Positions 41,265-60,328 of a stretch of DNA of 64,000 bases are shown here, in pieces. Every line of letters begins with the position of its first letter. Position 1 is the first letter of the stretch. A program made the position numbers and the translations under genes. The notes beneath the pieces were generated by a model. The model had not been told where the DNA came from, ran no database searches, and saw only the letters and a program-made list of their open reading frames with translations. This DNA is from Rhizobium sp. TH2 (GTDB lineage: Bacteria > Pseudomonadota > Alphaproteobacteria > Rhizobiales > Rhizobiaceae), in the NCBI RefSeq assembly GCF_024707525.1, contig NZ_CP062231.1, positions 682,001 through 746,000 of the forward strand, read 5' to 3'.

Positions 41265-41639
41265 TGGCAAACGGCTGGAAGCAACTGCTTGCGATCGCCT
41301 GCGACATGATCGACCCGTAAACGCGGAATATCCGATTATCGACTCTTGGACACTTGGCGGCGGCACGGCGCCAATATCCTGCCGCGCGACATCTTCGATA
41401 TCGCCGCAGCAAGCCTGGATCACCGTCAGATGCTCGTAGCCGAGCTTTCCAACCACAAGTCCAAAGTTGCCCGGGCTTTGGCGCAGATAGAGGCAGGCGA
41501 ACGCGGCTATGTCGATAGCGCTATCGCCGATCTTCCCATCCGGCCGAGTTTTGATGGTCTCAAGAAAGATGCGGTCGGCATTGCCACCGAACTGTTGAGA
41601 GAAGCAGTGACTCGCCCTACCCCTGCATCCGAAACGTAA
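41264..41639 (+). pseudogene. Remnant of AbiEii/AbiGii-like nucleotidyltransferase gene
   Basis: Three fragments of one protein lie in three frames. MANGWKQLLAIACDMIDP ends at a stop at 41318-41320. Next comes 'YPIIDSWTLGGGTA', the start of the nucleotidyltransferase motif, though the HRxSxDxD stretch that should follow is deleted. Last is 'RDIFDIAAASLDHRQM' and a helical C-terminus running to 41639. The remnant is about 125 codons against some 230-300 in intact proteins of this type. Its end overlaps the convergent TetR gene by 23 bp. Confidence 0.55.
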
Positions 41640-42267
41640 ACCGGCGTGACACCTCGATATCCTCTTCCGTCGGCTCCTGCCCGGAGAAGCTCTTCAGGTA
41701 GGCCGCCACATGCCCATGCCTCGTCTCGAGGTCTTCGTCGACCTCAAGCACATAATGCCCGACCTGGGTGAAATAGAGCACACGGGCGCGGATCAGGGCG
41801 TCCTCCTCGTCATAGCCATGGCGGCGGAACATGCTGGCGACGGCTTCCAGGCGCTGGCTGTCGGCGAGGCGGACGACGGCTTTCACCTCATCGGAGCGAC
41901 GGGCCCAGAGGCGGACGGCCATGTCGAGCTTGGGGTCGTAGAGGCTTTCGTCGGTCCAGCATTCGAAGACGTTGATGATGGCGCGGATGATGGTCGGCGC
42001 CGGGCGGTTGGCGCGCTCGATCATCGGCCCGGTATTGATCTTCAGCCAGTGGTCGAGCAACTGATTGTGCAGGTCCTTCAGGCTCTCGAAGAACCAGTAG
42101 AAGCTCGACCGCGAGACATTGAGCTCGCGCGCGATCACCTGCACCTTGACCTCGTCGATGCCGTGATTGACGAGCGCGCGGATCGCGTGGTTGAGCCAGT
42201 CCTCCTTGGTGGACCGGCCGCCTTCCTCGCTCGTGGCGATCGCCGTCAATCGCGTGCCTCCAGCCAT
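41617..42267 (-). CDS. TetR family regulator at the end of the sox operon
   Basis: A 216-residue regulator with HTH 'VQVIARELNVSRSSFYWFFES' and a C-terminal domain with 'LYDPKLDMAVRLWARR'. Its start overlaps the end of soxG by 22 bp, so it is co-translated with the sarcosine oxidase genes and probably feeds back on them or on the island. Confidence 0.88.
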   Translation of the reverse strand: MAGGTRLTAIATSEEGGRSTKEDWLNHAIRALVNHGIDEVKVQVIARELNVSRSSFYWFFESLKDLHNQLLDHWLKINTGPMIERANRPAPTIIRAIINVFECWTDESLYDPKLDMAVRLWARRSDEVKAVVRLADSQRLEAVASMFRRHGYDEEDALIRARVLYFTQVGHYVLEVDEDLETRHGHVAAYLKSFSGQEPTEEDIEVSRRFTFRMQG

Positions 42268-42758
42268 TGCCAGACATAGGGCGCAAAACCGCGCTCGACA
42301 TGGATGCGGAGTTTGCCGTCACGATGATAGACGATCGCCTGCTGGGCCGCAAAGACCGTTGCCGCGCTCGGGCTCTTGGCGCGTGGATCGACGAACATGG
42401 CTTCGGCGATGAGGTCGGCGAGGCCCGGGCCTTCGAACTCGAAGACATGATACATGGCGCTGACATCGGTGATGGCATAGCCGTGCGCGTGCCAACCGGC
42501 CGGCGTGCTGGACGACGGTGCGTTGACCGCCAAAAGCCGGTCGCGGGCGATGCGCAGTGCATAGCGGTCGCCGGAAACGTCGCCGAAGGCACCCACACCC
42601 GTGTCGGGCAGACCGGCTGCGGTGGCAAATCCACTCAGGTTGCCGCTGACCAGATGCTGCGGACCAACATCGATGGTCCGCGCCGCAAGGCCGTTGTGAT
42701 CTATATTCGCGCCGCGCCAATCCGGGACGCTCGGCCAGCTTGACGTCAAATCACGCAT
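42246..42758 (-). CDS. soxG: Sarcosine oxidase subunit gamma
   Basis: A 170-residue gamma subunit of heterotetrameric sarcosine oxidase. Typical features are 'DRYALRIARDRLLAVNAP', 'TDVSAMYHVFEFEGPGLADL' and the final 'IHVERGFAPYVWQWLEA'. The start is the ATG at 42756-42758, 8 bp inside the soxA end and preceded by AAGGAGGG. A longer frame to 42800 exists but is not needed. Order B-D-A-G is canonical. Confidence 0.9.
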   Translation of the reverse strand: MRDLTSSWPSVPDWRGANIDHNGLAARTIDVGPQHLVSGNLSGFATAAGLPDTGVGAFGDVSGDRYALRIARDRLLAVNAPSSSTPAGWHAHGYAITDVSAMYHVFEFEGPGLADLIAEAMFVDPRAKSPSAATVFAAQQAIVYHRDGKLRIHVERGFAPYVWQWLEARD

Positions 42759-45711: not shown

Positions 45712-45980
45712 CACGCTTCTCCCTCGGGCAGCAGGGCCGTCGAGGAATTGACGATGTGCGAGAGCGTGTCGCGGTTCATGGTGAAGACTTCCATGCAGGT
45801 CAGGTGCTTCCAGATTTCTTTCGACTCGCCACGCGGATTGTTGTGCGAGAAGAGGTAGGACGACCAGGTCTCGGGGCTCACCTCGAGAAAGCCTTCTGGA
45901 CGAAGGTTGCCGAGATCGCCGGCGAAGTGGAATTCGGTTTCCGGGCGCGGGCCGCAGAAGGGGCAGGGGAAGGTTTGCAT
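45711..45980 (-). CDS. soxD: Sarcosine oxidase subunit delta
   Basis: An 89-residue zinc-binding delta subunit. Cys6 and Cys9 (FPCPFCGPR) with His59 and Cys62 (WKHLTC) form the likely zinc site known for this subunit. It lies between soxB (18 bp upstream) and soxA (1-bp overlap), giving B-D-A-G. Confidence 0.93.
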   Translation of the reverse strand: MQTFPCPFCGPRPETEFHFAGDLGNLRPEGFLEVSPETWSSYLFSHNNPRGESKEIWKHLTCMEVFTMNRDTLSHIVNSSTALLPEGEA

Positions 45981-45998
45981 GTCTTGGTTCCTCTCCCG

Positions 45999-47252
45999 TC
46001 AGTGCGCGATGCCGGAGCCGGCCGCTTCGTCGATCAGCCGCCCGGTCTGGAAGCGGTCGAGATCGAAGGGCCGTGTCAGGTCGTGGTGCTTGCCATTGGC
46101 CATCATGTAGGCCGTCATTTCGCCGCCCACCGGGATGGACTTGAAGCCGCCGGTGCCCCAGCCGCAATTCAGGTAGAGGCCGGGCAGCGGGCTTTCGCCC
46201 ATGATCGGCGAGGAGTCGGGCGTCACGTCGACCACGCCGCCCCATTGCCGCATCAGCTTGAGCTGGCCGACGGTGGGGAACATTTCCATCAGGCCGGACA
46301 GCACCACTTCAAGCGCCGGCAGGTTGCCGCGCTGGGCGTAGGACGGCACGCGGTCGATGCCGCCGCCGATGACAAGCTCGCCCTTGTCGGACTGGCTGAC
46401 ATAGGTCGCGGTGGCCGGCGCCAGCACGACGGTGTCGAGGATCGGCTTGACCGGCTCGGAGACGCAGGCCTGCAACGTGTAGGAGATGACCGGCAGCCGG
46501 AAGCCGGCCTTGGCGGCCATCTGCGACGAGTTGCCGGCGACTGAAAGACTGACCTTGTCGGAACGGATCGGGCCCTTCGAGGTCATCACGCCGCGGCAGC
46601 GTCCGCCCTCGATGAGGAACTCGGTGACCTCGCAATTCTGGATGATATCGACGCCGAGACGATCCGCGGCACGGGCATAACCCCAGGCAACAGCATCGTG
46701 ACGCGCGACACCGGCACGGCCCTGCCAGACGCCACCGAGCACCTGGAAGCGGCTGTTCGCCGAGAAATCGTAAAGCGGCACGATCTTCTTGCAGGCCTCG
46801 ACATCGAGCAGTTCGGAATCGATCCCATTGATCTGCATTGCATTGACCAGGCGGGCGGCGATTTCCATCTCGCCCTTGGAGTGGACCATGGTCAGCACGC
46901 CGCGCTGCGAGAACATGACGTTGTAGTTCAGGTCCTTCGACAGGCCCTCATAGAGCTGCAGCGAGCGCTCGTAGAGAGCCGCACTTTCCGGATAGAAATA
47001 GTTGGAGCGGATGGTGGTCGTATTGCGGCCCGTATTGCCGCCGCCCAGCCAGCCCTTCTCGATAACAGCGACATTGGTGATGCCGTGGTTCTTGGCAAGG
47101 TAATAGGCCGTCGCCAGCCCATGCCCGCCGCCGCCGATGATGATCGCATCGTATTTCGATTTCGGCTCGGGCGATCGCCAGGCAGGCTTCCAGCCTTTCT
47201 GGTTGGCGAAGCCTTCCTTGATGAGCGAGAGGAGGGAGTAGTGGCGGGTCAT
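45999..47252 (-). CDS. soxB: Sarcosine oxidase subunit beta
   Basis: A 417-residue DAO-family flavoprotein and the catalytic subunit that oxidises sarcosine. The FAD-binding IIIGGGGHGLATAYYLA is at about 37-53, 'EKGWLGGGNTGRNTT' at about 65-79, and the His of 'ARHDAVAWGY' (about 185) is the expected covalent FMN site. The C-terminal GGFKSIPVGG closes the FAD domain. It is the first gene of the sox operon, with a palindromic element upstream. Confidence 0.94.
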   Translation of the reverse strand: MTRHYSLLSLIKEGFANQKGWKPAWRSPEPKSKYDAIIIGGGGHGLATAYYLAKNHGITNVAVIEKGWLGGGNTGRNTTTIRSNYFYPESAALYERSLQLYEGLSKDLNYNVMFSQRGVLTMVHSKGEMEIAARLVNAMQINGIDSELLDVEACKKIVPLYDFSANSRFQVLGGVWQGRAGVARHDAVAWGYARAADRLGVDIIQNCEVTEFLIEGGRCRGVMTSKGPIRSDKVSLSVAGNSSQMAAKAGFRLPVISYTLQACVSEPVKPILDTVVLAPATATYVSQSDKGELVIGGGIDRVPSYAQRGNLPALEVVLSGLMEMFPTVGQLKLMRQWGGVVDVTPDSSPIMGESPLPGLYLNCGWGTGGFKSIPVGGEMTAYMMANGKHHDLTRPFDLDRFQTGRLIDEAAGSGIAH

Positions 47253-47560: not shown

Positions 47561-49987
47561 TCAGCCCCTCATCACCTTGCCCATCGGGTCATACGGCGAG
47601 GCCTCGATAATCCGGCAAGCGCGCTCATCACCGACGATATGCGTCATCAGTTCCATCCCCGGCACCGCCAGTTCGCGGTCGACCAATGCCATGGCAATCG
47701 ACTTGCCGATCGTGTAGCCGTAGCCGCCCGATGTGACGTAACCCACCAGTTCGCCGTCCTTCCAGATCGGCTCATAGCCCGATGCGTCGGCATTGGTGGC
47801 GTCGACTTCGATCGTCACCTGCAGCTTCTTGGCGGATTGGGTTTCCTTTTCCGCCACCGCCGACTGCTTGCCGACGAAATCGGCCTTGTCGAAATCGATG
47901 AAGCGGTCGAACAGCGTTTCCTGCGGCGTATAGGCCTGGGTGAACTCCCTGGACCAGATGCCATAGCTCTTTTCGAGCCGCATGGAGAGCGAGGCGCCGA
48001 AACCGACTTCCTTGAGGCCGATGTCCCGGCCCGCCTTCAGCAGTGTCTCGCGGACCGTGCGGTGATAGGCGGCGGGGATGTTGATTTCGAAGCCCATCTC
48101 GCCGGTCACCGACATGCGGCCGACCTTGGCGCGGGCCAGTCCGATATCGATCGTCTTGCAGCCGAGGAACTTCAGGCTCGCATTGGAGACATCGTCCTCG
48201 GTCGCGCGCTGGAGGACTTCACGCGACAGCGGCCCGCAAAGCGAGAAGCCGACCCAATCGTCCGAGAGGTCGCGGACCGAGACGCCATCCATGTTGAACT
48301 GCTCGTACCAGCGCATATGCCATTCGCGCAGGTAGTACGAACCCATGATCCACCAGGTGCCATCGCCCCAGTTGAAGATCGTGAGGTCGCCCTTGAGGCG
48401 GCCGTCATGCCCAAGCATCGGTGCCAGCACCGAACGGCCGGGCTTGGGCAGCTTGCAGGCGAAGACCTTGTCGAGCCATTCGTGGGCCTTGGGACCTTTC
48501 ACCTCGTAACGGGAATAGCCGGAGATATCGATCAGGCCGGCTTTTTCGCGGGTGTGCAGCACTTCGCGGCCGACGATGTCGAAGGCGGTCGAGCGGCGCA
48601 GCGTGTGGTTTTCCTCGTACTCTTTGGGCGCGAAATAGAGCGGCACTTCGAGACCCCATGAAGCACCCCAGCGGGCACCGGCCTCGGTCATCTCGTCATA
48701 GGAGGGCGAGACCTTGAGCGGGCGGCCGGCGGGCAGCTGCTGGTTGGGATAGGTCATGACGAAACGGCGGGAATAGAACTGGCCGGTTGTTTCCTTGATA
48801 TATTGGCGGTTGGAGGCATGCTGGCCGTAGCGGGCGATGTCCATGCCGAAGACGTCGTCCTTCGGCTCGCCGAAGATCATCCATTCGGCCAGTGCCTTGC
48901 CGACTCCGCCGCCCTGCATGAAGCCGGCCATGACGCCGCAGGCGACCCAGTAGTTCTTGACGCCGCGCACCGGGCCGACCAGCGGATTGCCGTCGGGCGT
49001 AAACGTGAAGGCGCCGTTGACCCAGCGCTTGATGCCGGTCTTTTCCAGAACCGGATAGCGCTCGTAGGAAAGCGTCAGCTCATGCTCGATGCGATCGACA
49101 TCTTCCTGGATCAGGTCGAAGCCGTAATCCCAGGGCGCGCCATCCATGTTCCAGTGGCGGTGCTCGATTTCGTAGATGCCGAGCAGGATGCTCTTCTGCT
49201 CCTGGCGAAGATAGGAGAAGCCGTCGAGGTCGACCATGGTCGGCAGCTCTTCCTTGAGGCCGTCGAGTTCCGGGATCGCCTCGGTGACGAAATACATATG
49301 TTCGAGCGGCGAGACCGGCAGTTCGAGGCCCGCCATGCGGCCGACCTGCTTGGCCCACAGGCCGCCGGCATTGATGACATGCTCGGCATTGACCGTGCCC
49401 TGCTCGGTGACCACATCCCAGGAGCCATCGGGCTTCTGGGTGAGTTCCATCACGCGATTTTTCTCGACGATCGACGCGCCGCGCATGCGGGCCGCCTTGG
49501 CATAGGAATGCACGACCGCCGAGGGATCGATATGGCCTTCACGATCGGCATAGAGGCCGCCGATGATGCCGTCGGGCTTGACGATCGGGCAGCGGTCAAG
49601 AATTTCGTCTATGCCGATCAGGCGCACATCATCGATGCCGGTGGACTGGAACACGCGGTGCGCCGCCTTCAGCGCATCCCAGCGGTCCGGGTTGCAGGCA
49701 TAGGAAATGCCGCCGGTCGTGTGCATGCCGATATTGACGCCGCTTTCCTTCTCGACTTCGCTGAGAAGGTCGATCGTGTAGGCGTGCAACTGCGCGAGAT
49801 TGGGATTGGAGTTGAGCGCGTGGAAGCCGCCGGCGGCGTGCCAGGACGAGCCCGAAGTCAGCACGTTGCGCTCGATGAGCAGCGTGTCGGACCAGCCGTA
49901 TTTTGCGAGATGATAGAGAATGGCGGTGCCCACCACGCCGCCACCGATGACCACGACCTTGTAATGCGATTTCACGACCCGCTCCAT
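47561..49987 (-). CDS. Dimethylglycine/sarcosine dehydrogenase-family FAD enzyme
   Basis: An 808-residue protein with an N-terminal DAO-type FAD domain (VVVIGGGVVGTAILYHLAKY) and the flavin-linking His50 in SGSSWHAAGG. The C-terminal half is a GcvT-like folate domain ('YSRYEVKGPKAHEWLDK', 'GRMSVTGEMGFEINIP', 'SYGIWSREFT'). The family oxidises dimethylglycine or sarcosine and delivers the one-carbon unit to tetrahydrofolate. Sitting upstream of soxBDAG on the same strand, it would make the sarcosine that sarcosine oxidase then uses. An operator-like sequence lies 33 bp before its start. Confidence 0.9.
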   Translation of the reverse strand: MERVVKSHYKVVVIGGGVVGTAILYHLAKYGWSDTLLIERNVLTSGSSWHAAGGFHALNSNPNLAQLHAYTIDLLSEVEKESGVNIGMHTTGGISYACNPDRWDALKAAHRVFQSTGIDDVRLIGIDEILDRCPIVKPDGIIGGLYADREGHIDPSAVVHSYAKAARMRGASIVEKNRVMELTQKPDGSWDVVTEQGTVNAEHVINAGGLWAKQVGRMAGLELPVSPLEHMYFVTEAIPELDGLKEELPTMVDLDGFSYLRQEQKSILLGIYEIEHRHWNMDGAPWDYGFDLIQEDVDRIEHELTLSYERYPVLEKTGIKRWVNGAFTFTPDGNPLVGPVRGVKNYWVACGVMAGFMQGGGVGKALAEWMIFGEPKDDVFGMDIARYGQHASNRQYIKETTGQFYSRRFVMTYPNQQLPAGRPLKVSPSYDEMTEAGARWGASWGLEVPLYFAPKEYEENHTLRRSTAFDIVGREVLHTREKAGLIDISGYSRYEVKGPKAHEWLDKVFACKLPKPGRSVLAPMLGHDGRLKGDLTIFNWGDGTWWIMGSYYLREWHMRWYEQFNMDGVSVRDLSDDWVGFSLCGPLSREVLQRATEDDVSNASLKFLGCKTIDIGLARAKVGRMSVTGEMGFEINIPAAYHRTVRETLLKAGRDIGLKEVGFGASLSMRLEKSYGIWSREFTQAYTPQETLFDRFIDFDKADFVGKQSAVAEKETQSAKKLQVTIEVDATNADASGYEPIWKDGELVGYVTSGGYGYTIGKSIAMALVDRELAVPGMELMTHIVGDERACRIIEASPYDPMGKVMRG

Positions 49988-50019
49988 CCGATTTGTGAGG
50001 GCTGAACCCTAGATTATCT

Positions 50020-50033
50020 GTACATTGCTGTCC
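50020..50033 (-). promoter_or_regulatory. Shared operator-like motif, site C
   Basis: On the minus strand GGACA-N4-TGTAC, 33 bp before the dimethylglycine-dehydrogenase-like gene. It matches the core of sites at 51673-51686 and 58433-58446. Orientation and distance to the downstream ATG are close to those of the 51.7-kb site. Confidence 0.5.
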
Positions 50034-50081
50034 ATGCGGGTGTAGCGCAGTTCACAGCTTGCCCGCATGCGTTTTTCCGAC

Positions 50082-51635
50082 TTAGGAGACGGCTTCCGCG
50101 CCGCCCTCGGACATGCGTTTTGAAATGAAGCCATCAAGCCGTGCGCCGATCTCGTCGGCGCCTGCGATCGGCTGGTACTGGTCGATGACGCGTTTCCAGA
50201 TTCCGTTGGCGCGTTCGGTGGCGGTCTTCGATCCGCTTTCCGTCCAGTTGCCGAAATTCGAGAGATCGGCGACCAGCGGCTGGTAGAAGGCGGTGCGGTA
50301 GCGCGCCATCGTATGCGCGGCGGCGAAGAAATGGCCTCCCGGCTGCACCTCCTCGATCGCCGAGTAGCCGATCGCCTCGGCATCGCCCGGCGTCGGCGCG
50401 AAGAGTTCCGCCATCGTTTGAAGTGCCTCGATGTCGGTGATGAGTTTTTCGTAGGAAACCGAAAGCCCGCCCTCCATCCAGCCGGCGGCATGGATGCAGA
50501 GCGTGGCGCCCGCCAGCACGCTGCCCCAGAGCGCGAACTGGGTTTCGTGGGCGGCTTGTGCATCGGAGACGTTCGAGGCAGAGCCGCCGCCTGACCGCCA
50601 GGGCAGTCCCGTGAGGCGGGCGAGCTGGCCGGCGCCAAGCGTCGCCTTGACGTGCTCCGGCGTGCCGAAAGCAGGCGCACCGGACTTCATATCGACATTC
50701 GACGAGAAGCTTCCATACATCACCGGAGTGCCGGGTCGCACGATCTGGGCGAGTGCGATGCCGGCCAAAGCCTCCGCATGCTGCAATGTCAGCGCGCCTG
50801 CAACCGTTATCGGCGCCATCGCACCTGCGAGGCAGAACGGCGTGATGACCAGGATCTGCCCGGCCTTTGCGAAGTCGATGATCCCCTGCGCCATGGGAAT
50901 GTCGAGCTGGCGCGGCGAATTGGTGTTGATGATCGTGTAGCACCAGGCATCCGACAGGAATTCGTCATGCGAAATGCCGCGCGCGAGCCGGATCATCTCG
51001 AAGGCATCATCCGCCTGTGGCGTGCCCCGCGCATAGACGAAGGGAAACTTGTCTGATTGCGTGAGCTGCGTACGGGTCACGGCATAGTGCCGGTATTTTA
51101 CCGCAACGTCCTGCGCCTCGACATAGGGACCCTGGACATGCAGGACGTCGAAACTCTGGACGATCTTGGTCAGTGCATCGAAATCGGCGAGCGATCCGGC
51201 GCGGCGGCCACGGTCGAGATCGGTGACATTCGGCGCCCCCGACCCGGCGAGGAATGCCATGTTGCCGAGTTCGAATGTCTGGTCGCGGTTTGCGTTACCG
51301 GTGCGGGCATGGATGGAGCGCGGCGCGGAGGCGAGTCCCGCTTCGACGATGTCGCGGCCGATGCGGACCATCAAGGTTTCGTCATCGACGATGGCGCCGG
51401 CGCGTTGGAAGATGGCGCGTGCTTCCGGCAGCAGAACCTTGATGCCAAGCTCCTCCAGCACGCGCAATGCCGTCTCGTGAACCGCCCCGACCTCGTCGGT
51501 GGAAAAGACCGTCTGCGGCGCGAAGCTGTTCTTGAGGTTTCTGTAGTTCGGGCTGCGAACGGTCTGCGCGCGGTCTTCGCCTCCCAGCCGGTGGCGGCGC
51601 TCGCGGCGCGTCTGATGCAACATCTCGTCGATCAT
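50082..51635 (-). CDS. Trimethylamine methyltransferase (MttB) family protein, second copy
   Basis: A 517-residue MttB-superfamily protein, clearly paralogous to the protein at 34092-35627: 'TDLDRGRRAGSLADFDALTK', 'GTPVMYGSFSSNVDMKSGAP', 'EEVQPGGHFFAAAHTMARYR'. It has a longer basic N-terminal leader (HQTRRERRHRLGG). There is no in-frame amber codon. It heads the gene pair with the dimethylglycine-dehydrogenase-like gene. ATG at 51635 follows AAGGGAG. The natural substrate is not known; the context favours a betaine-like onium. Confidence 0.85.
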   Translation of the reverse strand: MIDEMLHQTRRERRHRLGGEDRAQTVRSPNYRNLKNSFAPQTVFSTDEVGAVHETALRVLEELGIKVLLPEARAIFQRAGAIVDDETLMVRIGRDIVEAGLASAPRSIHARTGNANRDQTFELGNMAFLAGSGAPNVTDLDRGRRAGSLADFDALTKIVQSFDVLHVQGPYVEAQDVAVKYRHYAVTRTQLTQSDKFPFVYARGTPQADDAFEMIRLARGISHDEFLSDAWCYTIINTNSPRQLDIPMAQGIIDFAKAGQILVITPFCLAGAMAPITVAGALTLQHAEALAGIALAQIVRPGTPVMYGSFSSNVDMKSGAPAFGTPEHVKATLGAGQLARLTGLPWRSGGGSASNVSDAQAAHETQFALWGSVLAGATLCIHAAGWMEGGLSVSYEKLITDIEALQTMAELFAPTPGDAEAIGYSAIEEVQPGGHFFAAAHTMARYRTAFYQPLVADLSNFGNWTESGSKTATERANGIWKRVIDQYQPIAGADEIGARLDGFISKRMSEGGAEAVS

Positions 51636-51660
51636 GGCTGGCTCCCTTGGTTGGCAGGAT

Positions 51661-51686
51661 TGAAACATTTACGTACACATATGTCC
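51661..51686 (-). promoter_or_regulatory. Shared operator-like motif, site B
   Basis: On the minus strand 26 bases starting GGACATATGTGTAC match 58433-58458 at 22 of 26 positions. It lies 26 bp before the mttB-like ATG and 64 bp before the divergent enolase-superfamily gene, so one site could serve both directions. The inner ACATATGT is a perfect palindrome. Confidence 0.6.
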
Positions 51687-51750
51687 AGAGATCATTGCGA
51701 AAATTTTTTGCGCGGCCTAAGGTGCGGAAAAGCCAGTTCGGGGAGACGCC

Positions 51751-52920
51751 ATGAAGATCGCAGCCATCCGCGCCACGCCTGTCAACATTCCCTTCACCGC
51801 TCCCTACCGCTTCTCCTATGGCTCGATCGCGTCGCTGACCAAGACGGTGATCGAGGTCGAAACCGATGACGGAGTCATCGGCCTCGGCGAGTGCGCCGAG
51901 GGTGACCGCGCGGCCGACGTGATGGCCCTTGGGCAGCGGTTGATCGGCCTCGACATCAGGCAACTGAACCGGGCCGAGCGCCTGCTCGTCCCCGGCATGC
52001 GATACACGCCCTGGGGCAATGTGCTGGCCGCCCGCCGCGTCTTCGGCGGCATCGAGATGGCTATGTGGGATGCGCGCGGCAAGACCGAGGGCGTACCACT
52101 CTACCTTCTGCTTGGCGGCGCGGTTCGTACCGAAATCCCGCACACCGAATATTTCAGCTACCGCTATCCCGGCGCGCATGACCCGGGCGAATCTTCGCCC
52201 CTCGAAGTCGCGCGCTACTGCGCCCGGATGATCGAGGAGCATGGCTCTGATATCTTCGAGGGCAAGATGAGCACGGTTGGCCTGGCGGAAGAGATCGAGA
52301 TGGTGCGCGAGGTCCGCGCCGCCATCGGCGACCGCGCACTGCGGCTCGATGCCAATTACGGCTGGACGATGCCCACGGCGCGCGAAGCGTTGAAGCGGCT
52401 CGAACCCTTCGACATCCAATGGTTCGAAGACCCGGCGGAGACCTATGAGGAACTCGCGGAACTGAGGAAGCACTCCGCGGTATCCTTCTCGGCTCATGTG
52501 ATCGACCTGCCGAAAGCCGTCCGGGTGCGGTGCCCGGAAACGCTTGTGACCAATGTCAACGAACATGGCGGTATCCGCCGCACCGTCGATTTCATCCGCG
52601 CCTGCGAGACCTTCGACGTCGGCTTCCGCTTCCACTCCGGCGAAACGGGCATCGCCAGCGCCGCCTATCTGCATCTGACGGCGGCCATCGAGCACGTGCG
52701 CGAGGCGAGCCAGACGCTGTTCCGCTGGTATGCGGATGACGTGATCGAAGGCGGGCCGTTTGTGATGAAGAATGGTGTGGTTAAGGTGCCGGATGGGCCG
52801 GGGCTTGGCGTAACGATCGATCCTGTGGCGCTGAAGCGGTGCCATGAGCGGTTTCTGGCGGAGGGGGCTTTTCCCGGGGCAAAGAATACGGCCTATGGGG
52901 ATGGGTTTCGGAAGAAGTGA
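51751..52920 (+). CDS. Mandelate racemase/muconate lactonizing enzyme family protein
   Basis: A 389-residue enolase-superfamily enzyme with an N-terminal capping domain and a barrel. Candidate active-site residues are Lys172 (FEGKMST), Asp200 (RLDANYGW), Glu226 (WFEDP) and His295 (FHSGETGIA). The usual KxK is E-G-K here. The third metal-ligand position, normally Glu or Asp, falls in 'FSAHVIDL' (His249 or Asp252). Known relatives dehydrate sugar acids or hydroxyproline, or epimerise hydroxyproline betaine; the last fits the context but is a guess. Divergent from the mttB-like gene. Confidence 0.85.
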   Translation: MKIAAIRATPVNIPFTAPYRFSYGSIASLTKTVIEVETDDGVIGLGECAEGDRAADVMALGQRLIGLDIRQLNRAERLLVPGMRYTPWGNVLAARRVFGGIEMAMWDARGKTEGVPLYLLLGGAVRTEIPHTEYFSYRYPGAHDPGESSPLEVARYCARMIEEHGSDIFEGKMSTVGLAEEIEMVREVRAAIGDRALRLDANYGWTMPTAREALKRLEPFDIQWFEDPAETYEELAELRKHSAVSFSAHVIDLPKAVRVRCPETLVTNVNEHGGIRRTVDFIRACETFDVGFRFHSGETGIASAAYLHLTAAIEHVREASQTLFRWYADDVIEGGPFVMKNGVVKVPDGPGLGVTIDPVALKRCHERFLAEGAFPGAKNTAYGDGFRKK

Positions 52921-52924
52921 GTTG

Positions 52925-53046
52925 GCCCCTCACCCTAACCCTCTCCCCGTAAGAACGGGGCGAGGGGACGCCAAGGGCGCCCACGGTGCCACAAATCCCT
53001 TCTCCCCTGCTTACGGGGAGAAGGTGGCGGCAGCCGGATGAGGGGC
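52925..53046. repeat. 122-bp palindromic intergenic element
   Basis: It lies between the enolase-superfamily and Ldh-family genes. Outer repeats GCCCCTCA / TGAGGGGC (52925-52932, 53039-53046) are perfect. The inner pair CTCTCCCCGTAAG (52941-52953) and 53010-53022 match at 12 of 13. It is the third palindromic element in 9 kb. An RNA copy would fold strongly and may separate expression of the two flanking genes. Confidence 0.8.
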
Positions 53047-53130
53047 AAAGCAAAGACCTGTGGTGCCCTTGCGGAGATGGAGTGGGGCGGGGTAATCCTC
53101 TCTCAACGTATAGACATAAAAGGACCCGCC

Positions 53131-54150
53131 ATGACCGCGACGAAAAAACTCACCGCCGACCAGGCATCCGACCTGATCTTCGACGCGCTTGTCGGTGCCG
53201 GCACGGTGGCGCGCAATGCGCGCTATTTCGCCGATGCGATTCTCGATACCGAACTTTCCGGGCTGGAAGGTCACGGCTTCTACTGGCTGCAATATTATTG
53301 CGAGCACGTGCAATCGGGCAAGGTCGATGGCAAGGCGACGCCCGTCGTCAAGCGGCTGACCAACGTCTCCTTCCGCGTCGACGCCAAGAACGGTTTTGCC
53401 CATCCGGCGATCGAGAAGGGTTTTGCGCATCTGGTTCCGGCGGCGCTGGAGAATGGCATCGCCGCGATGGCGGTCCACAATTCCTATAATGCCGCGACGC
53501 TTGGCTATCACACCGGTTATCTCGCGCAGCAGGGCCTAGTCGCCTTCGGCTTCACCAATTCGTCGCCGGCGATTGCGCCAGTGGGTGGTACCAAGCCGGT
53601 GATCGGCACCAACCCGATGAGTTTCGCCGTGCCCGGAAAGAAGGGGCGCATTGCCTTCCTGATTGATCAATCCTCGTCGCAAGTCGCATGGACGGCGGTC
53701 AAGCGGGCTGCCGAGGAGAACCAGGTCATCCCGCTCGGCTGGGCGATCGACAGAAGCGGCCAGCCGACCACCGATCCGGAAGAAGGCTTGAAGGGTTCGA
53801 TGGCACCCGCCGGTGGCTACAAGGGTTTCGGCCAGGGCCTGATCGTCGAGACGATGTGCGCGGCACTCGCCGGCGCCAATCGCGGTCAGGAAATGGGCTC
53901 GATGATGGCGAATGACGGCCTGCCTGTCGGCAATGGCCAGTTCTTCATCGCGCTCGAGCCCAAGATGTTTTCTGGCGGCCTGTTCGAAAAGCAGATCGAG
54001 CGGCTGATCGCCTCGATCACATCACAGCCCGGCGCCAGAATGCCGAATTCACGGCGGCAGGAGAACATCAAGAAGAACCTCAAGGGCGGGCTGACGATCG
54101 ACAAGGCACTCTACGACAAGATCAAGGCCTATACCGAGCGCCACGTCTGA
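53131..54150 (+). CDS. Ldh family oxidoreductase (malate/L-lactate dehydrogenase-like)
   Basis: A 339-residue NAD(P)H-dependent enzyme of the YiaK/ComC family. It has 'DTELSGLEGHGFYWL' (substrate-binding His), 'GFTNSSPAIAPVGG', 'GTNPMSFAVPGK' and 'GGYKGFGQGLIVE'. The family reduces 2-keto acids or cyclic imines such as pyrroline-2-carboxylate. The latter would fit catabolism of proline-type betaines. ATG 53131 follows AAAGGACC, 27 bp ahead of the DddP-like gene's operon partner arrangement. Confidence 0.85.
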   Translation: MTATKKLTADQASDLIFDALVGAGTVARNARYFADAILDTELSGLEGHGFYWLQYYCEHVQSGKVDGKATPVVKRLTNVSFRVDAKNGFAHPAIEKGFAHLVPAALENGIAAMAVHNSYNAATLGYHTGYLAQQGLVAFGFTNSSPAIAPVGGTKPVIGTNPMSFAVPGKKGRIAFLIDQSSSQVAWTAVKRAAEENQVIPLGWAIDRSGQPTTDPEEGLKGSMAPAGGYKGFGQGLIVETMCAALAGANRGQEMGSMMANDGLPVGNGQFFIALEPKMFSGGLFEKQIERLIASITSQPGARMPNSRRQENIKKNLKGGLTIDKALYDKIKAYTERHV

Positions 54151-54177
54151 CCGGAACGAAGGCAGGGGGAGCGCATC

Positions 54178-55437
54178 ATGGACCAGCTATTGCCTCCCGT
54201 TTTCAAGGACGAGCGCAAGCGCACCTTCCTCAATGCCGAAGGCGCCGAAAAGCCATTGAAGAGCCCGTTGCCTGGGGATGTGGTGGAGCGCGCCCGCGCC
54301 TATCGCCTCGGCCGGATCAGGAAGGGCCTGATCGAGACCGATTGCGCGGCGGCACTGCTCTACGATCCGGTCAATATCCGCTATGCGCTCGATAGCCCCA
54401 ACATGCAGGTCTGGTCGCTGCACAATCCGGTGCGCTATGCGCTGGTCTTCGCCGTGGGTCCGGCTCTGCTGTTCGACTACAAGGGCGCCGAGCATCACTC
54501 GAAACACCTGAAGGCGATTGACGAAGCCAAGCCCGCGACCTCGTGGATCTATGTCATGGCCGGCGACAAATCTGCCGAGCAGGCCGTGAAATGGGCGGCT
54601 GAGATCGGCGATCTCGTGCGCCAGCACGGCGGCGGCAACAAGCGCATTGCGGTCGATCGGCTCGATGTCGAGGGCGTGCGGGCGCTGGAGAAGATCGGCA
54701 TCGAGGTCGTCGATGGCACGCCGATGACCGAGACGGCGCGCTCGATCAAATCGGCCGACGAGATCGCGCTGATGCGCTGGACGATCCGAGTCTGCGAAGC
54801 CGGCATGGCGCGCATCTACGAGCATTCGGTGCCCGGCGTCACCGAGCAGGAACTTTGGGCGCATCTGCATTTCGAGAATGCACGCTCCGGCGGCGACTGG
54901 CTGGAGACCAAGATCCTCACCTGCGGGCCGAACACCAATCCCTGGTATGGCGAATGTTCGGACCGGGTCTGTCGCGAGGGCGAGATGATCGCCTTCGATA
55001 CCGATATGATCGGTCCCTACGGCTATTGCGCCGATCTCTCGCGCTCATGGACCTGCGGCTATACCGCGATGACACCAAAACAGGCCGAACACTACTCGGC
55101 CGCCGTCGATCAGGTCGAACACAACATTTCGATCCTGCGCGACGGGATGGATTTCCGCGAGTTCAACGAAAAGTCCTGGCGCATTCCCGAGCGCTACCAG
55201 CCTTACCGCTATTCACTCGCCGTCCACGGCGTCGGCATGGCGGATGAATGGCCGATCGTGCTCTGTCATACCGATTTCGAGCAGAACCAGGGCGGCCGGT
55301 TCGAGGCAGGCATGGTGGTTTGCGTCGAAAGTCTGATCTCGGAACCGGGTTGCGAAAGCATCAAGCTCGAAACGCAGGTGCTGATTACGCCGAATGGTCC
55401 GGAGCGGCTCGATCAATTCCCCTGGGAGCGGCTCTGA
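54178..55437 (+). CDS. DddP-like M24-fold enzyme (candidate DMSP lyase)
   Basis: A 419-residue pita-bread-fold protein. Likely di-metal ligands are Asp274, Asp276, Asp286, His350, Glu384 and Glu398. Their spacing nearly equals that recalled for Roseovarius DddP (295/297/307/371/406/421). Tyr345 and Asp356 in 'YSLAVHGVGMADEWPI' match its Tyr366 and proposed catalytic base Asp377. Other shared stretches are 'NMQVWSLHNPVRYALV', GGGNKRIAVDRL and 'GPNTNPWYGEC'. DddP splits dimethylsulfoniopropionate into dimethyl sulfide and acrylate. Ectoine hydrolase and creatinase share the fold but fit less well. Activity on DMSP remains inference; another onium is possible. Confidence 0.75.
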   Translation: MDQLLPPVFKDERKRTFLNAEGAEKPLKSPLPGDVVERARAYRLGRIRKGLIETDCAAALLYDPVNIRYALDSPNMQVWSLHNPVRYALVFAVGPALLFDYKGAEHHSKHLKAIDEAKPATSWIYVMAGDKSAEQAVKWAAEIGDLVRQHGGGNKRIAVDRLDVEGVRALEKIGIEVVDGTPMTETARSIKSADEIALMRWTIRVCEAGMARIYEHSVPGVTEQELWAHLHFENARSGGDWLETKILTCGPNTNPWYGECSDRVCREGEMIAFDTDMIGPYGYCADLSRSWTCGYTAMTPKQAEHYSAAVDQVEHNISILRDGMDFREFNEKSWRIPERYQPYRYSLAVHGVGMADEWPIVLCHTDFEQNQGGRFEAGMVVCVESLISEPGCESIKLETQVLITPNGPERLDQFPWERL

Positions 55438-56323
55438 GCCAGTTCATCAGGTCTACCAGGCCCGCCTTGCGCGCCTTGGCGTGGGGATAGACCAGGCAAT
55501 AGGGATGGCCGAGCGGGATTGGCCGCTCATCCACCAGCACCAGCCGGCCCGCCTCCATATCGTCGGCGCCCATCTCCCGCTGGCCGAGTGCCACGCCGAA
55601 ACCGTCGCGGGCGAGGTCGAGCGCCAGGCTGGATTTGCCGACACGATAGCCCAGCGTCTCGTCTGGGCGCTTGATACCGATCTCGGCGAGCCACGCCTGC
55701 CATCTCGGGTGCGAGACGAAGGTCGGCCCCCAATTGGTGTGGATCAGATCGTCGTCCGGCACCGCAGCCATGCCTTCACTCCGGACGGCCGGATTGCGCA
55801 CGAGATAATCCGGGCTGCACATCGGCACGACCGCATCCTGAACCAGCGGAATGGTGACCATGTCGGGGTAGAGGCTGAGACCGTAGGACAGCCTGAGATC
55901 GATATCGTAGCGGGCGAAGTCGGCGAGATCCTCCTCGGACCTGAGTTCGAAACGGAAGTTCGGGTGATCTTGGAAATAGAGCTTGAGCTTCGGCTCCATC
56001 CATCGCTCGGCGATCGAGGGCAGGGCGCTGATCACCAGCCGCGAACGGGCACGGCCCGAGACGACCTTTTCGGTGAAGGCCGAGATCGATTGCAGCGCGT
56101 CCGATGCGCCGGAGAAAATCGTCTGTCCGGCGTCGGTCAGCACGATGCGGTTGTTGTAGCGCCGGAACAATTGCTTGCCGAGAAACTCCTCGAGGTTCTT
56201 GACCTGCTGGCTGACGGCGGCGGCAGAAACACCGAGTTCGTCAGCCGCCGAGACATAACTTCCGCTCCGCGCGGCAGCCTCGAAGGCGCGCAGGGCATTG
56301 AGTGGCGGGAGTGAGAGTGACAT
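55385..56323 (-). CDS. LysR family transcriptional regulator (GcvA-like)
   Basis: A 312-residue regulator with the N-terminal winged HTH 'LPPLNALRAFEAAARSGSYV' and 'ELGVSAAAVSQQVKNLEEFLG', then a substrate-binding domain ending near residue 300. It is convergent with the DddP-like gene, overlapping its last 53 bp, and divergent from the 2-oxoglutarate oxygenase gene (97-bp gap), which it likely controls together with the Rieske gene. Confidence 0.92.
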   Translation of the reverse strand: MSLSLPPLNALRAFEAAARSGSYVSAADELGVSAAAVSQQVKNLEEFLGKQLFRRYNNRIVLTDAGQTIFSGASDALQSISAFTEKVVSGRARSRLVISALPSIAERWMEPKLKLYFQDHPNFRFELRSEEDLADFARYDIDLRLSYGLSLYPDMVTIPLVQDAVVPMCSPDYLVRNPAVRSEGMAAVPDDDLIHTNWGPTFVSHPRWQAWLAEIGIKRPDETLGYRVGKSSLALDLARDGFGVALGQREMGADDMEAGRLVLVDERPIPLGHPYCLVYPHAKARKAGLVDLMNWLRAAPRGIDRAAPDHSA

Positions 56324-56420
56324 AGGCCTGCCTCAGTTTTTCTAGGTCAGGATAAGAATTTTCGCCGTTGAGTAAAGAGAGAACTTTGCCAAGATGCATT
56401 CAATCAATTGGAGCAATGAC

Positions 56421-57209
56421 ATGCGAAATATCCTTGACCTTGACCGCTATCCCCTCGACCAGCCCGGCAGCACGGGCTGGCGCAATCTCGTGGATCAATG
56501 CCGCATCGATCTCTCGGAGAAGGGCATGTTCGACCTTGAAGGCTTCGTGCGGCCGGAGGCGGTCGAGAAGGCCATCAATGAGGTCAAGCCGGTGATGGAT
56601 ACGCTCTCCTTCGTCCATAAGCGGGCTCACAATGTCTATTTCCGCAAGGAAATTCCGGAATTGCCAGCTGACCATCCGGCGCTGCGCAAGGTCGAGACGA
56701 TCAGCCACACGGTCTGCGCCGACCAGATTTCCGACAGCGTACCGGTTTGGATTTACGAATGGCCGCAATTCGCCGTCTTCCTCGCCGCCTGCATGGAAAA
56801 AGAGACGCTGTTCACCATGCGCGACCCGCTCGCCCGGGTGAATGTCATGGGCTACCGCGAGGGCGAGGCGCTGAACTGGCATTTCGACCGCTCGCAATTC
56901 ACCACCACGATCCTGTTCCAGGCGCCGATCAAGGGCGGCGAGTTCCAGTATCGCTCCAACCTCCGCACCGATACCGATCCCAACTACGAGGGCGTCGAGC
57001 GGGTGCTGCTCGGCGAGGATAACGAGGTCAAGTCGCTGACCCTCGTGCCCGGTTCGCTCAACGTGTTCATGGGCAAGAATACCATGCACCGCGTGACCCC
57101 GGTCAAGGGCGAGCGCGAGCGGTTGATCGCCGTGTTCTCTTACTACGAGCGGCCGGGCGTGATGTTTTCCAAGGAAGAGCAGATGGGTTTCTACGGCCGC
57201 GCGGCCTGA
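56421..57209 (+). CDS. Fe(II)/2-oxoglutarate oxygenase, HalD/BesD-like family, hydroxylase-type facial triad
   Basis: A 262-residue oxygenase. His154, Asp156 (NWHFDRSQFTTT) and His223 (MHRVTPVKG) form the iron triad; Arg232 or Arg234 would bind 2-oxoglutarate. The fold resembles HalD/BesD amino-acid halogenases, but those have Gly where this has Asp156, so hydroxylation is expected. ATG 56421 is preferred because GGAG lies 7 bp before it; ATG 56394 is also in frame. It is followed after 32 bp by a Rieske oxygenase gene, so the two oxygenases act in one pathway. Confidence 0.78.
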   Translation: MRNILDLDRYPLDQPGSTGWRNLVDQCRIDLSEKGMFDLEGFVRPEAVEKAINEVKPVMDTLSFVHKRAHNVYFRKEIPELPADHPALRKVETISHTVCADQISDSVPVWIYEWPQFAVFLAACMEKETLFTMRDPLARVNVMGYREGEALNWHFDRSQFTTTILFQAPIKGGEFQYRSNLRTDTDPNYEGVERVLLGEDNEVKSLTLVPGSLNVFMGKNTMHRVTPVKGERERLIAVFSYYERPGVMFSKEEQMGFYGRAA

Positions 57210-57241
57210 TCATTTTACATCGATATTTTGGGGGTGAATCC

Positions 57242-58375
57242 ATGAGCGTATTTTCGGATCTAAGAGCGGCCCTCAAATCGTCGGAGAATCTCGGCTATGA
57301 CAGCGCCTGGGCGATGCCCCGGGCGTTCTATGCCGATCCAGATGTGCTGGCGCTGGAAAAGAAGCATCTCTTCGGCAGCGAATGGATCTGTATCGGCCGG
57401 GCCGAAGAGGTGCCGGAAATCGGCGACAGCATGGCATTCACGCTCTGCGATGAGCCGCTCGTGGCCGTGCGCGGCGACGACCGGAAGATCAGGGTATTCG
57501 CCAATGTCTGCCGCCATCGCGGCGCAATCCTTGTCGAGGGTAAAAGCCGCGGCAAGCGCATCGTCTGTCCCTACCACCACTGGTCCTACAATCTCGACGG
57601 AACGCTGGCCGGCGCGCCGCGCATGGAAGCGCACGGTGGCTTCCAGAAGGACGATTGCAAACTGCCGGAATATTGGACCGAGGAATGGTGCGGCTTCCTG
57701 TTCACCTCGCTCGCTGCCGATCCGCCGCCGCTCGGACCCAAGCTCGAACCGTTGAAGGCGCTGATCGGCAACTATCACATGGAGGAGATGAAGCTCCGCT
57801 ATCTCGCCGACGAGATCTGGCACACCAACTGGAAGAGCCTCATCGAGAATTTCATGGAAGGCTATCACCTCTCGCCGCTGCACAAGACGACGCTGCACCC
57901 CGTCAATCCGACGCGGCTCTGTTCGCACTTTCCGGCGGGTGACAGCTATTTCGGCTATAATGCCGGCTACTCGCCTGACCTGCCGCGTTCGCAGAAAGGC
58001 CATCCCGACCTCAGCGACGCCGAGGCGGACAATTGCGTGATGTTCGCCGTGCCGCCCGGGTTGATCTCGGGTTGCGGCGGCGATTACTCGTCCTTCATCT
58101 GCGTCCAGCCGGAGACTGTTGACCGCGTCCGCGCCAAGCTCGGCCTCATCTTCTATGGCGAAGGCTGGAGCGAGGAGGCGGTCGACAAGGCCGTCACCCT
58201 GTTCAACGACACGATGAGCGAGGACAAGACGGTGCTGGCCACGTTGATGAAGGGCATCAACGCCAAGTCCTATGTTCCCGGTCCCTTAGCGCCGGCCGAT
58301 TTCGAAGGCAATGTCCTCGATTTCTACCGCTATGTCAGCCGGCGATTGTCGCCTGTGCTCGAAACGGAAGGCTGA
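57242..58375 (+). CDS. Rieske aromatic-ring-hydroxylating-type oxygenase, alpha subunit
   Basis: A 377-residue protein. The Rieske 2Fe-2S ligands are Cys90, His92, Cys109 and His112 (CRHRG...CPYHHW). The mononuclear iron site is in 'NFMEGYHLSPLHKTT' with His209 and His214 and bridging Glu206. A Glu at the bridging site is seen in quaternary-amine oxygenases such as carnitine and glycine-betaine monooxygenases, which supports oxidative N-demethylation or C-N cleavage of a betaine. No reductase subunit is adjacent. Confidence 0.88.
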   Translation: MSVFSDLRAALKSSENLGYDSAWAMPRAFYADPDVLALEKKHLFGSEWICIGRAEEVPEIGDSMAFTLCDEPLVAVRGDDRKIRVFANVCRHRGAILVEGKSRGKRIVCPYHHWSYNLDGTLAGAPRMEAHGGFQKDDCKLPEYWTEEWCGFLFTSLAADPPPLGPKLEPLKALIGNYHMEEMKLRYLADEIWHTNWKSLIENFMEGYHLSPLHKTTLHPVNPTRLCSHFPAGDSYFGYNAGYSPDLPRSQKGHPDLSDAEADNCVMFAVPPGLISGCGGDYSSFICVQPETVDRVRAKLGLIFYGEGWSEEAVDKAVTLFNDTMSEDKTVLATLMKGINAKSYVPGPLAPADFEGNVLDFYRYVSRRLSPVLETEG

Positions 58376-58432
58376 AAACGTCGCCGCTGCATCCTTGGCT
58401 TGAAGGCCTCAAATATTTCCGCAATAATCTAT

Positions 58433-58458
58433 AGACATCGGTGTACATAAATGTTTCA
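58433..58458 (+). promoter_or_regulatory. Shared operator-like motif, site A
   Basis: 26 bases starting AGACATCGGTGTAC match site B (51661-51686, other strand) at 22 of 26, including a shared 10-base TAAATGTTTC-type tail. It lies about 38 bp upstream of the -35 box of the ABC importer promoter, a usual place for an activator. Confidence 0.6.
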
Positions 58459-58495: not shown

Positions 58496-58524
58496 TTGAC
58501 GGCTGGCGTATGTAGCTATACGAT
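58496..58524 (+). promoter_or_regulatory. Sigma70-type promoter of the ABC importer operon
   Basis: TTGACG (58496-58501) and TACGAT (58519-58524) are separated by 17 bp, inside the 291-bp gap before the substrate-binding protein gene. The resulting leader would be about 135 bases. The rest of the gap has no gene. Confidence 0.55.
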
Positions 58525-58666
58525 CGCATAATAAGGCGCGGCGCCCCGATACCGTGGCGCATTTCCGCTTGACAGGGCCCCCGGAATGGCGGCTCAATAT
58601 GAGACGGGATTAAATCTATACATAATAAAAAGACGGGCCTGCCACAAAGAAAACCAAGAGGGAACC

Positions 58667-60328
58667 ATGACAATCAATTACAAGCTTCTCGACTTCCTGC
58701 GCAAAGGCCGTAGCGAACACGAAAACCATCTGATTGACGGCCTCGTTGCGGGCCGCGTCAGCCGCCGCGAATTCCTGCGCTTCGGCTCGGTGCTCGGCCT
58801 TTCCGCACCCTTTCTAGGCTCCGTCGCCGGTGCAGTCGGGCTCGCCGGCGTGCCGAATTTCGCTCGCGCGCAAACCCCGGGCGGCACCATCCGCGTCGGC
58901 CAGATCGTTCCGGCAGCGGCAATCGAGCCGGTGAAGCTCGCCGACGGCGGCGGCATCACCGTCATCAGCCAGGTTGCCGAGACGCTCGTCCTCTCCGGCA
59001 AGGATCTCGTGGCCCGGCCGCTGCTCGCCGAGAGCTGGGCGCCGAACAAGGACGGCTCGGTCTGGACCTTCAAGATCCGCAAGGGCGTGAAGTTCCATGA
59101 CGGCCGCGACATGACCGCCAAGGACGTGGTGGCCAGTATCGACCGCATTGCCGATCCGGCAAACGGCTCGAACGCGCTTTCCGCGTTGAAGGGCGTGCTC
59201 TCCAAGGGCGGCACCAAGCAGATCGATGATTATACCGTCGAGTTCACGCTGGATGCGCCGAATGGCGGCTTCCCCTATTCGATGTCGACCGACAACTACA
59301 ACGCCGTGATCGTGCCGCACGACTATGACGGCAATTTCGAAGCCAAGATGATCGGCACGGGCCCGTTCAAGCTCGAAAGCTATACGCCGAAGGTCGGCGG
59401 CAATTTCGTGCGCAACGACGCATACTGGGGTGGTCAGGTTCTGCCGGATCGCATCGAGATTTCCTTCTACGACGACTACCAGCCGCAACTGCTGGCGCTG
59501 CAGGGCGGACAGATCGACTTCATCCAGCAGGTGCCGATCCTTCAGGCCTCCGGCATCATCAATGATCCCTCGGTCGATATGATGCCGATCCCCTCGATCG
59601 CGCATTCGCAGGTCCATATGCGCACGGACAAGGCGCCGTTCACCGACAAGCGCGTGCGCCAGGCGATCGCGCTCTGCCTTGACCGGCCGGCGATCGTGCA
59701 GGGACTGATGCGCGGAAAGGCGCAGATCGGCAACGACAGCCCGTTCGCGCTTGCCTATCCGTCGAGCGACAAGACCGTCGCCCAGCGCCAGAAGGACATC
59801 GCCAAGGCCAAGGAACTGATGGCCGCCGCCGGCATGCCGGATGGTTTCGAGGTGACGCTGACCACGGAGAAGTATCTGGAAATCCCGGATTACGCCGTGA
59901 TCATCCAGAATGCCGTCAAGGAGATCGGCGGCAAGATCAACCTCAACATCATGGACCAGGGCGCCTACTACGGCGAGGCGGTCTACGGCAAGTCGAACTG
60001 GCTCGATTCCGACATGGGGATCACGGACTATGGCCATCGCGGCGTGCCGAACGTCTACCTCACGGCGCCTCTGCAGAGCGAAGGCACCTGGAACTCCGCG
60101 CACTTCAAGAACAAGGAGTATGACGGATTGGTGGCGAGCTACATCGGTGCCCTCGATCTTGAAGCGCAGCAGGCCGTTGCCGGCAAGATCCAGACGCTCC
60201 TGCTCGATGAAAGCCCCGTGCTTTTCACCTACTTCTACGACTTCATGTCGGCTGCGAAGAAGGGATCGACGGGCATTGAGGTGACGGCGATGAGCCATCT
60301 GATGCTGAAGGACGCCAAGCTGGGCTAG
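58667..60328 (+). CDS. ABC transporter substrate-binding protein (family 5, dipeptide/oligopeptide type)
   Basis: A 553-residue periplasmic binding protein with a Tat signal (VSRREFLRFGSVLGLSAPFL, twin Arg about 27-28, cleavage near ARA/QT). The family-5 signature is 'TFKIRKGVKFHDGRDMTAKD' and 'DKRVRQAIALCLDRPAI'. It follows AAGAGGGAA. Tat export implies folding in the cytoplasm. With the downstream permeases and ATPase it forms an importer; the ligand may be a peptide or, given the island, an onium compound. Confidence 0.92.
   Translation: MTINYKLLDFLRKGRSEHENHLIDGLVAGRVSRREFLRFGSVLGLSAPFLGSVAGAVGLAGVPNFARAQTPGGTIRVGQIVPAAAIEPVKLADGGGITVISQVAETLVLSGKDLVARPLLAESWAPNKDGSVWTFKIRKGVKFHDGRDMTAKDVVASIDRIADPANGSNALSALKGVLSKGGTKQIDDYTVEFTLDAPNGGFPYSMSTDNYNAVIVPHDYDGNFEAKMIGTGPFKLESYTPKVGGNFVRNDAYWGGQVLPDRIEISFYDDYQPQLLALQGGQIDFIQQVPILQASGIINDPSVDMMPIPSIAHSQVHMRTDKAPFTDKRVRQAIALCLDRPAIVQGLMRGKAQIGNDSPFALAYPSSDKTVAQRQKDIAKAKELMAAAGMPDGFEVTLTTEKYLEIPDYAVIIQNAVKEIGGKINLNIMDQGAYYGEAVYGKSNWLDSDMGITDYGHRGVPNVYLTAPLQSEGTWNSAHFKNKEYDGLVASYIGALDLEAQQAVAGKIQTLLLDESPVLFTYFYDFMSAAKKGSTGIEVTAMSHLMLKDAKLG

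Follow-up and report, generated by a model that had tools for sequence, protein, structure and literature searches.

The window analysed here is a 64-kb stretch of the Rhizobium sp. TH2 genome (G000; 6,439,517 bp in 4 contigs). It carries an island of genes with predicted functions in onium catabolism, three copies of the operator-like sequence RGACA-N4-TGTAC and a gene for a TetR/AcrR-family regulator, the proposed reader of these copies. On the minus strand, the genes are arranged in the order mttB, DMGDH, soxB, soxD, soxA, soxG and tetR. The first of them (50082..51635) encodes a methyltransferase of the MttB superfamily, with an MTTB domain scoring 617 bits (PF06253). Its nearest solved chains are 2qne and the glycine betaine methyltransferase 9yce, and with 279 bits for a cut-off of 525 it does not belong to the trimeth_pyl equivalog TIGR02369. 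The next gene (47561..49987) encodes a dimethylglycine-dehydrogenase-like (DMGDH) flavoprotein with a folate-binding GCV_T domain (PF01266, PF16350 and PF01571). The soxB (45999..47252; TIGR01373, 685 bits, cut-off 529) and soxA (42751..46245; TIGR01372, 1180 bits, cut-off 1164) products belong to the sarcosine oxidase beta and alpha families, respectively, the true start of soxA probably lying further in than that of the listed open reading frame (ORF). soxD was seen as a translated frame and named by position, and a soxG-like ORF (42246..42800), at the place of sarcosine oxidase gamma, was named by position only; the gene order matches that of the annotated Shinella soxBDAG. The tetR gene (41617..42267) overlaps the end of soxG by 22 bp.

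The plus strand carries, divergent from mttB, an enolase-superfamily gene (51751..52920; PF13378, PF02746), followed by genes for an Ldh_2 dehydrogenase (53038..54150; PF02615), an M24/DddP-like protein (54178..55437; NF043017, 382 bits, below the cut-off of 600), a Rieske oxygenase related to carnitine monooxygenase and GbcA (57242..58375) and the SBP_bac_5 solute-binding protein (SBP) of an importer (58667..60328). A GcvA-like LysR gene (55385..56323) lies among them on the minus strand. The starts of the mttB and SBP genes were taken from alignment and similarity, respectively, with L004, a locus from a Rhizobium sp. metagenome-assembled genome (MAG). No substrate assignment for the island could be obtained from NCBIfam, PDB sequence and neighbourhood searches; the Rieske protein was nearest to carnitine monooxygenase, and the nearest chains of the enolase protein are named merely as isomerases or dehydratases.

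As the initial annotation had reported, the three copies of RGACA-N4-TGTAC are intergenic: site 1 at 50020-50033 on the minus strand (GGACAGCAATGTAC), site 2 at 51673-51686 on the minus strand (GGACATATGTGTAC) and site 3 at 58433-58446 on the plus strand (AGACATCGGTGTAC). The sequence lies in the middle of a longer, imperfect palindrome of 20 bp, CTGGACA-N4-TGTCCAG, so that the candidate TetR operators extend over 50017..50036 (TCTGTACATTGCTGTCCATG on the plus strand), 51670..51689 and 58430..58449. Site 1, between mttB and DMGDH, is located 32 bp from the DMGDH ATG (49987), one base less than first measured. Site 2, in the divergent mttB/enolase intergenic region, is located 37 bp from the mttB ATG (51635), exactly as first measured; the ORF list gives a longer mttB that begins at an in-frame ATG further upstream (51668). 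Site 3 lies 57 bp behind the Rieske gene and about 220 bp upstream of the likely importer start at 58667. Three exact matches in the window compare with 0.03 expected, a number that was reached in none of 100 shuffles. They are also the only exact matches in the whole genome, where the reversed control pattern has 14, and the many genome-wide matches that would have spoken against a dedicated operator are thus not there. When one mismatch is allowed, 185 places are found versus 385 for the reversed control. The loose pattern is by itself uninformative; it is the exact, clustered and intergenic set that is notable.

Counted by eye, sites 2 and 3 are identical at 22 of 26 bases over a 26-base extension, in agreement with the initial annotation. 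A longer block, CGCAATnATCTnTRGACATnnnTGTACnnAAATGTTTCA, is common to site 2, site 3 and the L004 copy. In addition, a weaker dyad (GAAACAT..GTACA) overlaps site 2 with a shift of 10 bp (51660..51679, 5.1 bits), and a similarly shifted second dyad is present at site 3 (58440, 5.0 bits) and in L004 (9917, 7.9 bits). A sigma70-like element, TTGAAG-17-AATAAT (58400-58428), one of three in the region, ends just before site 3, and the CGCAATnAT block before site 2 occupies the matching place; a search with the promoter consensus used gave no match at sites 1 and 2. Placement of an operator directly after a -10 element would be compatible with repression. The same layout could mean that the sites are promoter duplications with shared -35 and -10 elements and no operator function, considering that sites 2 and 3 have some 40 bp in common, the -10-like CGCAATnAT just upstream included, and that a promoter-like match abuts site 3. 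Such an origin appears extremely improbable, because site 1 shares little besides the palindrome and because the palindrome recurs, singly or paired, beside tetR in other genomes.

A palindromic 20-bp motif was trained by expectation maximization on about 300 bp up- and downstream of 26 tetR relatives whose products are at least 44% identical (44-59%) to the window TetR; neither the window nor L004, its closest relative, was included. The trained motif, tCTGGACACATGTGTCCAGa, is present in the training DNA of 18 of the 26 loci. A scan of the 64 kb with this blind motif ranked sites 2, 3 and 1 first to third, with 22.8, 17.6 and 16.8 bits, the next score being 6.6. With 100 first-order Markov resamples, the third-ranked score stayed at or below 10.0 (best top score, 20.0), and with 500 column-permuted motifs it stayed at or below 13.6. 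Matches of at least 12 bits were found in 17 of 29 short tetR loci of about 3.6 kb, and unrelated loci from the enolase search (L005-L083, 1.31 Mb) contained two such matches, or three with a slightly different background. Isolated matches at L024:15590 (19.7 bits) and L048:12278 (an exact RGACA-N4-TGTAC) lie in enolase-relative loci without the island.

L004 is the best named relative of the window (enolase 84% identical). It keeps the block TetR-sox-DMGDH-mttB / enolase-Ldh2-LysR-2OG-Rieske-SBP, in which no M24 homologue was found. Site 1 is kept there (exact motif at 8281; 8278-8297, 17.4 bits), as is site 2 (exact motif at 9930; 9927-9946, 27.3 bits). In the alignment with L004, the site 2 palindrome stands out as a conserved block inside a diverged spacer; the site 1 region is also conserved, the divergence of its surroundings being less clear. 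The L004 genome contains five exact matches to RGACA-N4-TGTAC, the other three of which are located inside ORFs. Its SBP gene is apparently tandemly duplicated (L004:15483-18714), with one copy in the window. The 48 enolase-relative loci (L004-L051) come mostly from Rhodobacterales and other MAGs; L004 alone keeps the whole block, and exact matches are confined to L004 (two) and L048 (one). L017, which has homologues of the enolase, DMGDH (59%) and mttB (65%) genes and no tetR match at 1e-20, has no site above 6 bits.

A search of 397 genomes of the order for proteins related to the window TetR gave matches at E<=1e-30 in 57, its own included. G000 showed one TetR of this kind at that threshold, 7 of 27 first-look candidates having been scored, and GACA-N4-TGTAC palindromes were seen close to tetR around the relatives' genes. 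The comparison covered 34 tetR loci from other genomes. Sixteen are from plasmid records (L150-L165), 14 of them picked among 60 listed of 309 matching records and 2 reached via mttB; the other 18 (L173-L190), of at most 20 kb each, were the highest-ranking places of the 397-genome search, the own one excepted. A site above 12 bits is present in 31 of the 34 loci, and in 633 kb none lies away from tetR or the neighbouring operons. A homologue of DMGDH, mttB or soxBA, at least 50% identical to that of the window, is found nearby in 25 of the 34, and all 25 have a site preceding one of these genes or its operon. They include eight loci in which tetR is last or distal (L151, L157, L164, L175, L185, L187, L189 and L190) and where the site precedes the first gene of the operon, beyond the DNA used for training. 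Sites in L159, L160 and L165 are weaker and of the TTGACA type (14-18 bits). Paired operators are spaced by 21 bp in L150, L178, L179 and L182, by 31 bp in L157 and L164, and by 14 bp in L174 and L176, so that six of the eight pairs fit whole helical turns. SBP-family genes, 25-27% identical to that of the window, adjoin tetR and the sites in L150, L152, L178, L179 and L182. In Mesorhizobium sp. B1-1-8, tetR is oriented towards a DMGDH-mttB-SBP series. A cytochrome P450 gene was observed between the DMGDH homologue and mttB in Leisingera sp. S132 (L157:5157-7924), giving the order DMGDH-P450-mttB-tetR.

The window TetR carries a TetR_N helix-turn-helix (HTH) domain (PF00440, 32.3 bits, cut-off 24) with a strongly conserved recognition helix. 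Among 28 TetR rows with at least 44% identity, window and L004 included, the helix has the sequence VSRSSFYW(F/Y)F in 23, the exceptions being L126, L131, L138, L150 and L152. In TetRs associated with TTGACA-type sites the sequence is SRTSFYW(F/H)F, and in those associated with CCATACA-type sites it is (T/S)RGSFYWHF. Both of these groups are well supported in the tree; support for the node that joins the CTGGACA rows is weak (93/59), and some joins are unsure owing to long branches. The match between helix and operator across the TetR groups is a correlation, not proof that one reads the other. In the AlphaFold model (mean pLDDT 89.8, 12 helices) the C-terminal ligand/dimer domain is all-helical, and Foldseek matched the protein to TetR-family chains, HapR, FadR, QacR and RcdA among them (E down to 1.9e-4; query TM-score of 0.38-0.67 among the 50 matches listed). 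The four solved chains found by TetR sequence match the HTH part only, so that no ligand can be read from them. The palindromic operator near its own or a target promoter that characterizes TetR/AcrR repressors was located by computation only.

Two candidate readers had been named in the initial annotation, the TetR protein, whose relatives carry the motif as described above, and the island's LysR, which does not fit. LysR proteins often control neighbouring catabolic genes, and this one lies within the island and is kept in L004. It is nevertheless very improbable that it reads the three sites as an activator. In a matched control, on which this candidate was rejected, none of 12 LysR-relative loci reached 12 bits (best, 10.3). 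No such site was found in the divergent intergenic region of the LysR gene itself or near its relatives, the best score in its own 3.9-kb locus being negative, and the sites adjoin TetR relatives in loci where LysR matches reach 30% identity at best. Part of the LysR/2OG intergenic region is conserved in L004, but its sequence is a different one. In that region (window 56323-56394), CAGGATAAGAATTTT..CCGTTGAGTAAAG is shared with L004 and is possibly a LysR site of its own.

Taken at the level of sequence comparison, these data make it very likely that all three sites serve as operators for the TetR protein encoded in the island (41617-42267), by which the adjoining operons would be repressed. 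A TetR dimer, or adjacent cooperating dimers, would bind CTGGACA-N4-TGTCCAG-like palindromes beside the promoters that serve mttB together with the divergent enolase operon, DMGDH and, in this genome, perhaps the importer, thereby blocking transcription. Release from DNA would follow the binding to TetR of an N-methylated substrate, of onium or betaine type, or of a demethylation product. Placed last in the soxBDAG block under its predicted control, tetR could provide feedback, if read-through from site 1 or site 2 extends to sox and tetR.

Several observations weigh against this assignment. Among the 500 column-permuted motifs the top score reached 23.6, above the 22.8 bits observed. No site was found in three TetR-relative loci, L188 (44% identical), L158 and L161 (both 43%). 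Many of the 34 loci overlap the training set or are near kin, as for five Shinella/Sinorhizobium sox loci, and they are therefore not 34 independent tests. The identity of TetR to its L004 counterpart (91%) is little above that of the enzymes (mttB, 88%; DMGDH, 87%). In the window, an operator adjoining tetR is absent, as is one before soxB, unlike in Shinella, and DMGDH and soxB lie 308 bp apart, with inverted repeats in the interval. Two more promoter-like elements (58496-58524 and 58599-58626) lie between site 3 and the importer, and neither the motif scan nor a pattern search revealed a counterpart of site 3 before the L004 SBP genes. Finally, an unrelated TetR gene paired with an MFS gene in the same genome (G000:C1:5732630) has a palindrome, TTAGACACTATTGTCTAA, whose score of 20.3 bits is no lower than those of sites 1 and 3.

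Two of these points concern the importer, whose link is the weakest of the three. Because site 3 is unconserved in L004 and extra promoter-like elements are present, the link to uptake rests on the window's own genome and on the SBP-family genes of five other loci. Sites 1 and 2 could thus be real operators and site 3 a decayed or copied one that does not control the importer, about 220 bp away. This possibility deserves attention but is on balance unlikely, since site 3 scores 17.6 bits, above site 1, and since SBP-family genes adjoin tetR with sites between them in L152, L178 and L182. The proposal of the initial annotation that a single regulator reads all three sites is well supported by computation. 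Of the functions that it would link, namely uptake, corrinoid-type demethylation and folate-linked oxidation, uptake is the least secure, and the corrinoid-type chemistry is presumed from MttB-superfamily membership. The expectation of the annotation that true sites would be conserved in relatives keeping the genes holds for sites 1 and 2 in L004 and fails for the importer site.

The score of the TetR/MFS palindrome means that the motif alone does not name its reader; linkage and co-occurrence do. A different regulator, for instance this other TetR of the own genome with its TTAGACA-N4-TGTCTAA palindrome, could in principle read the sites. We consider this quite improbable, as that TetR is not among the E<=1e-30 matches, its palindrome differs in the flanks, and local linkage together with cross-genome co-occurrence favours the island's own TetR. 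An unrelated TetR gene divergent from an MFS gene, with two adjacent palindromes of the TTAGACA-N4-TGTCTAA type, is found both there (G000:C1:5732612-5732647, L172) and at G297:C2:192525 (L166). The pattern TRKACA-N4-TGTMYA occurs at four places in G000: site 1, site 3, 3324869 and 5732631. A looser palindrome with at most two mismatches has 30 places in the own genome versus 58 for the reversed control, so that the consensus is not enriched genome-wide. Scored over 18 bases, sites 1, 2 and 3 rank fourth, second and sixth among these 30. The best place (5179087, 20.4 bits) lies within a long ORF spanning the whole 2.5-kb stretch, the third is the TetR/MFS palindrome and the fifth is at 4488902. 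The sequence TTGGACAAGCATGTCCAT at G000:C1:3324868-3324885 (L171), upstream of a solute-binding protein gene of sugar-type appearance, is possibly an extra operator or the site of another regulator.

The predicted system resembles the QacR-type TetR/AcrR repressors by its PF00440 domain, its all-helical model and its palindromic operators at predicted catabolic promoters. QacR operators overlap, whereas the operator pairs found here are 14, 21 or 31 bp apart. Parallels also exist in proline betaine (stachydrine) loci. A TetR relative, 40-41% identical, is located beside OYE-type genes, with a palindrome between, in the hpbA cluster of Paracoccus pantotrophus and in a region of Sinorhizobium meliloti that we take to be stcD-like. 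The Paracoccus OYE-type gene is annotated hpbA, N-methyl-L-proline N-demethylase, and the S. meliloti gene is OYE-like by tblastn. The TetRs of these loci differ from that of the window in belonging to another tree group, in having TTGACA-type sites and in their other target enzymes, the kin of the window TetR being found with DMGDH, mttB and sox. BetI, GbdR and SouR-type regulators control the uptake or breakdown of quaternary ammonium compounds. GbdR and SouR belong to the AraC family, and no BetI entry was found among the NCBIfam-profile or solved-chain matches of the window TetR.

Nothing on this TetR appears in the portions of the literature searched, those of PMC12478193, PMC12239276 and PMC4113996 included, and no sign of regulation of the DMGDH-mttB pair was found in that literature. 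The regulon is apparently new and undescribed, the kind of system being already known. We are somewhat inclined to see in this TetR group a widespread and still undescribed master repressor acting on N-methyl/onium demethylation in Alphaproteobacteria. It would tie MttB-DMGDH and sarcosine-oxidase operons to SBP-type uptake via one palindrome, with helix and operator having co-diverged into three dialects (CTGGACA, TTGACA and CCATACA). Across the loci examined, this TetR repeatedly accompanies the DMGDH-mttB pair. A named candidate regulator and a defined 20-bp operator offer a direct handle for finding the substrate, through release of TetR by N-methylated compounds, and the motif predicts which importer and demethylases share one pathway.

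Two other features of the window were observed. An inverted-repeat element at 47317-47522, between DMGDH and soxB, may act as a terminator or attenuator; similar stretches occur at several places in L004. The segment 34092-39126, without the motif, contains an ORF resembling mttB at the DNA level, an MFS gene and a gene for an OYE-type flavoprotein, and is a possible further N-demethylation cluster.

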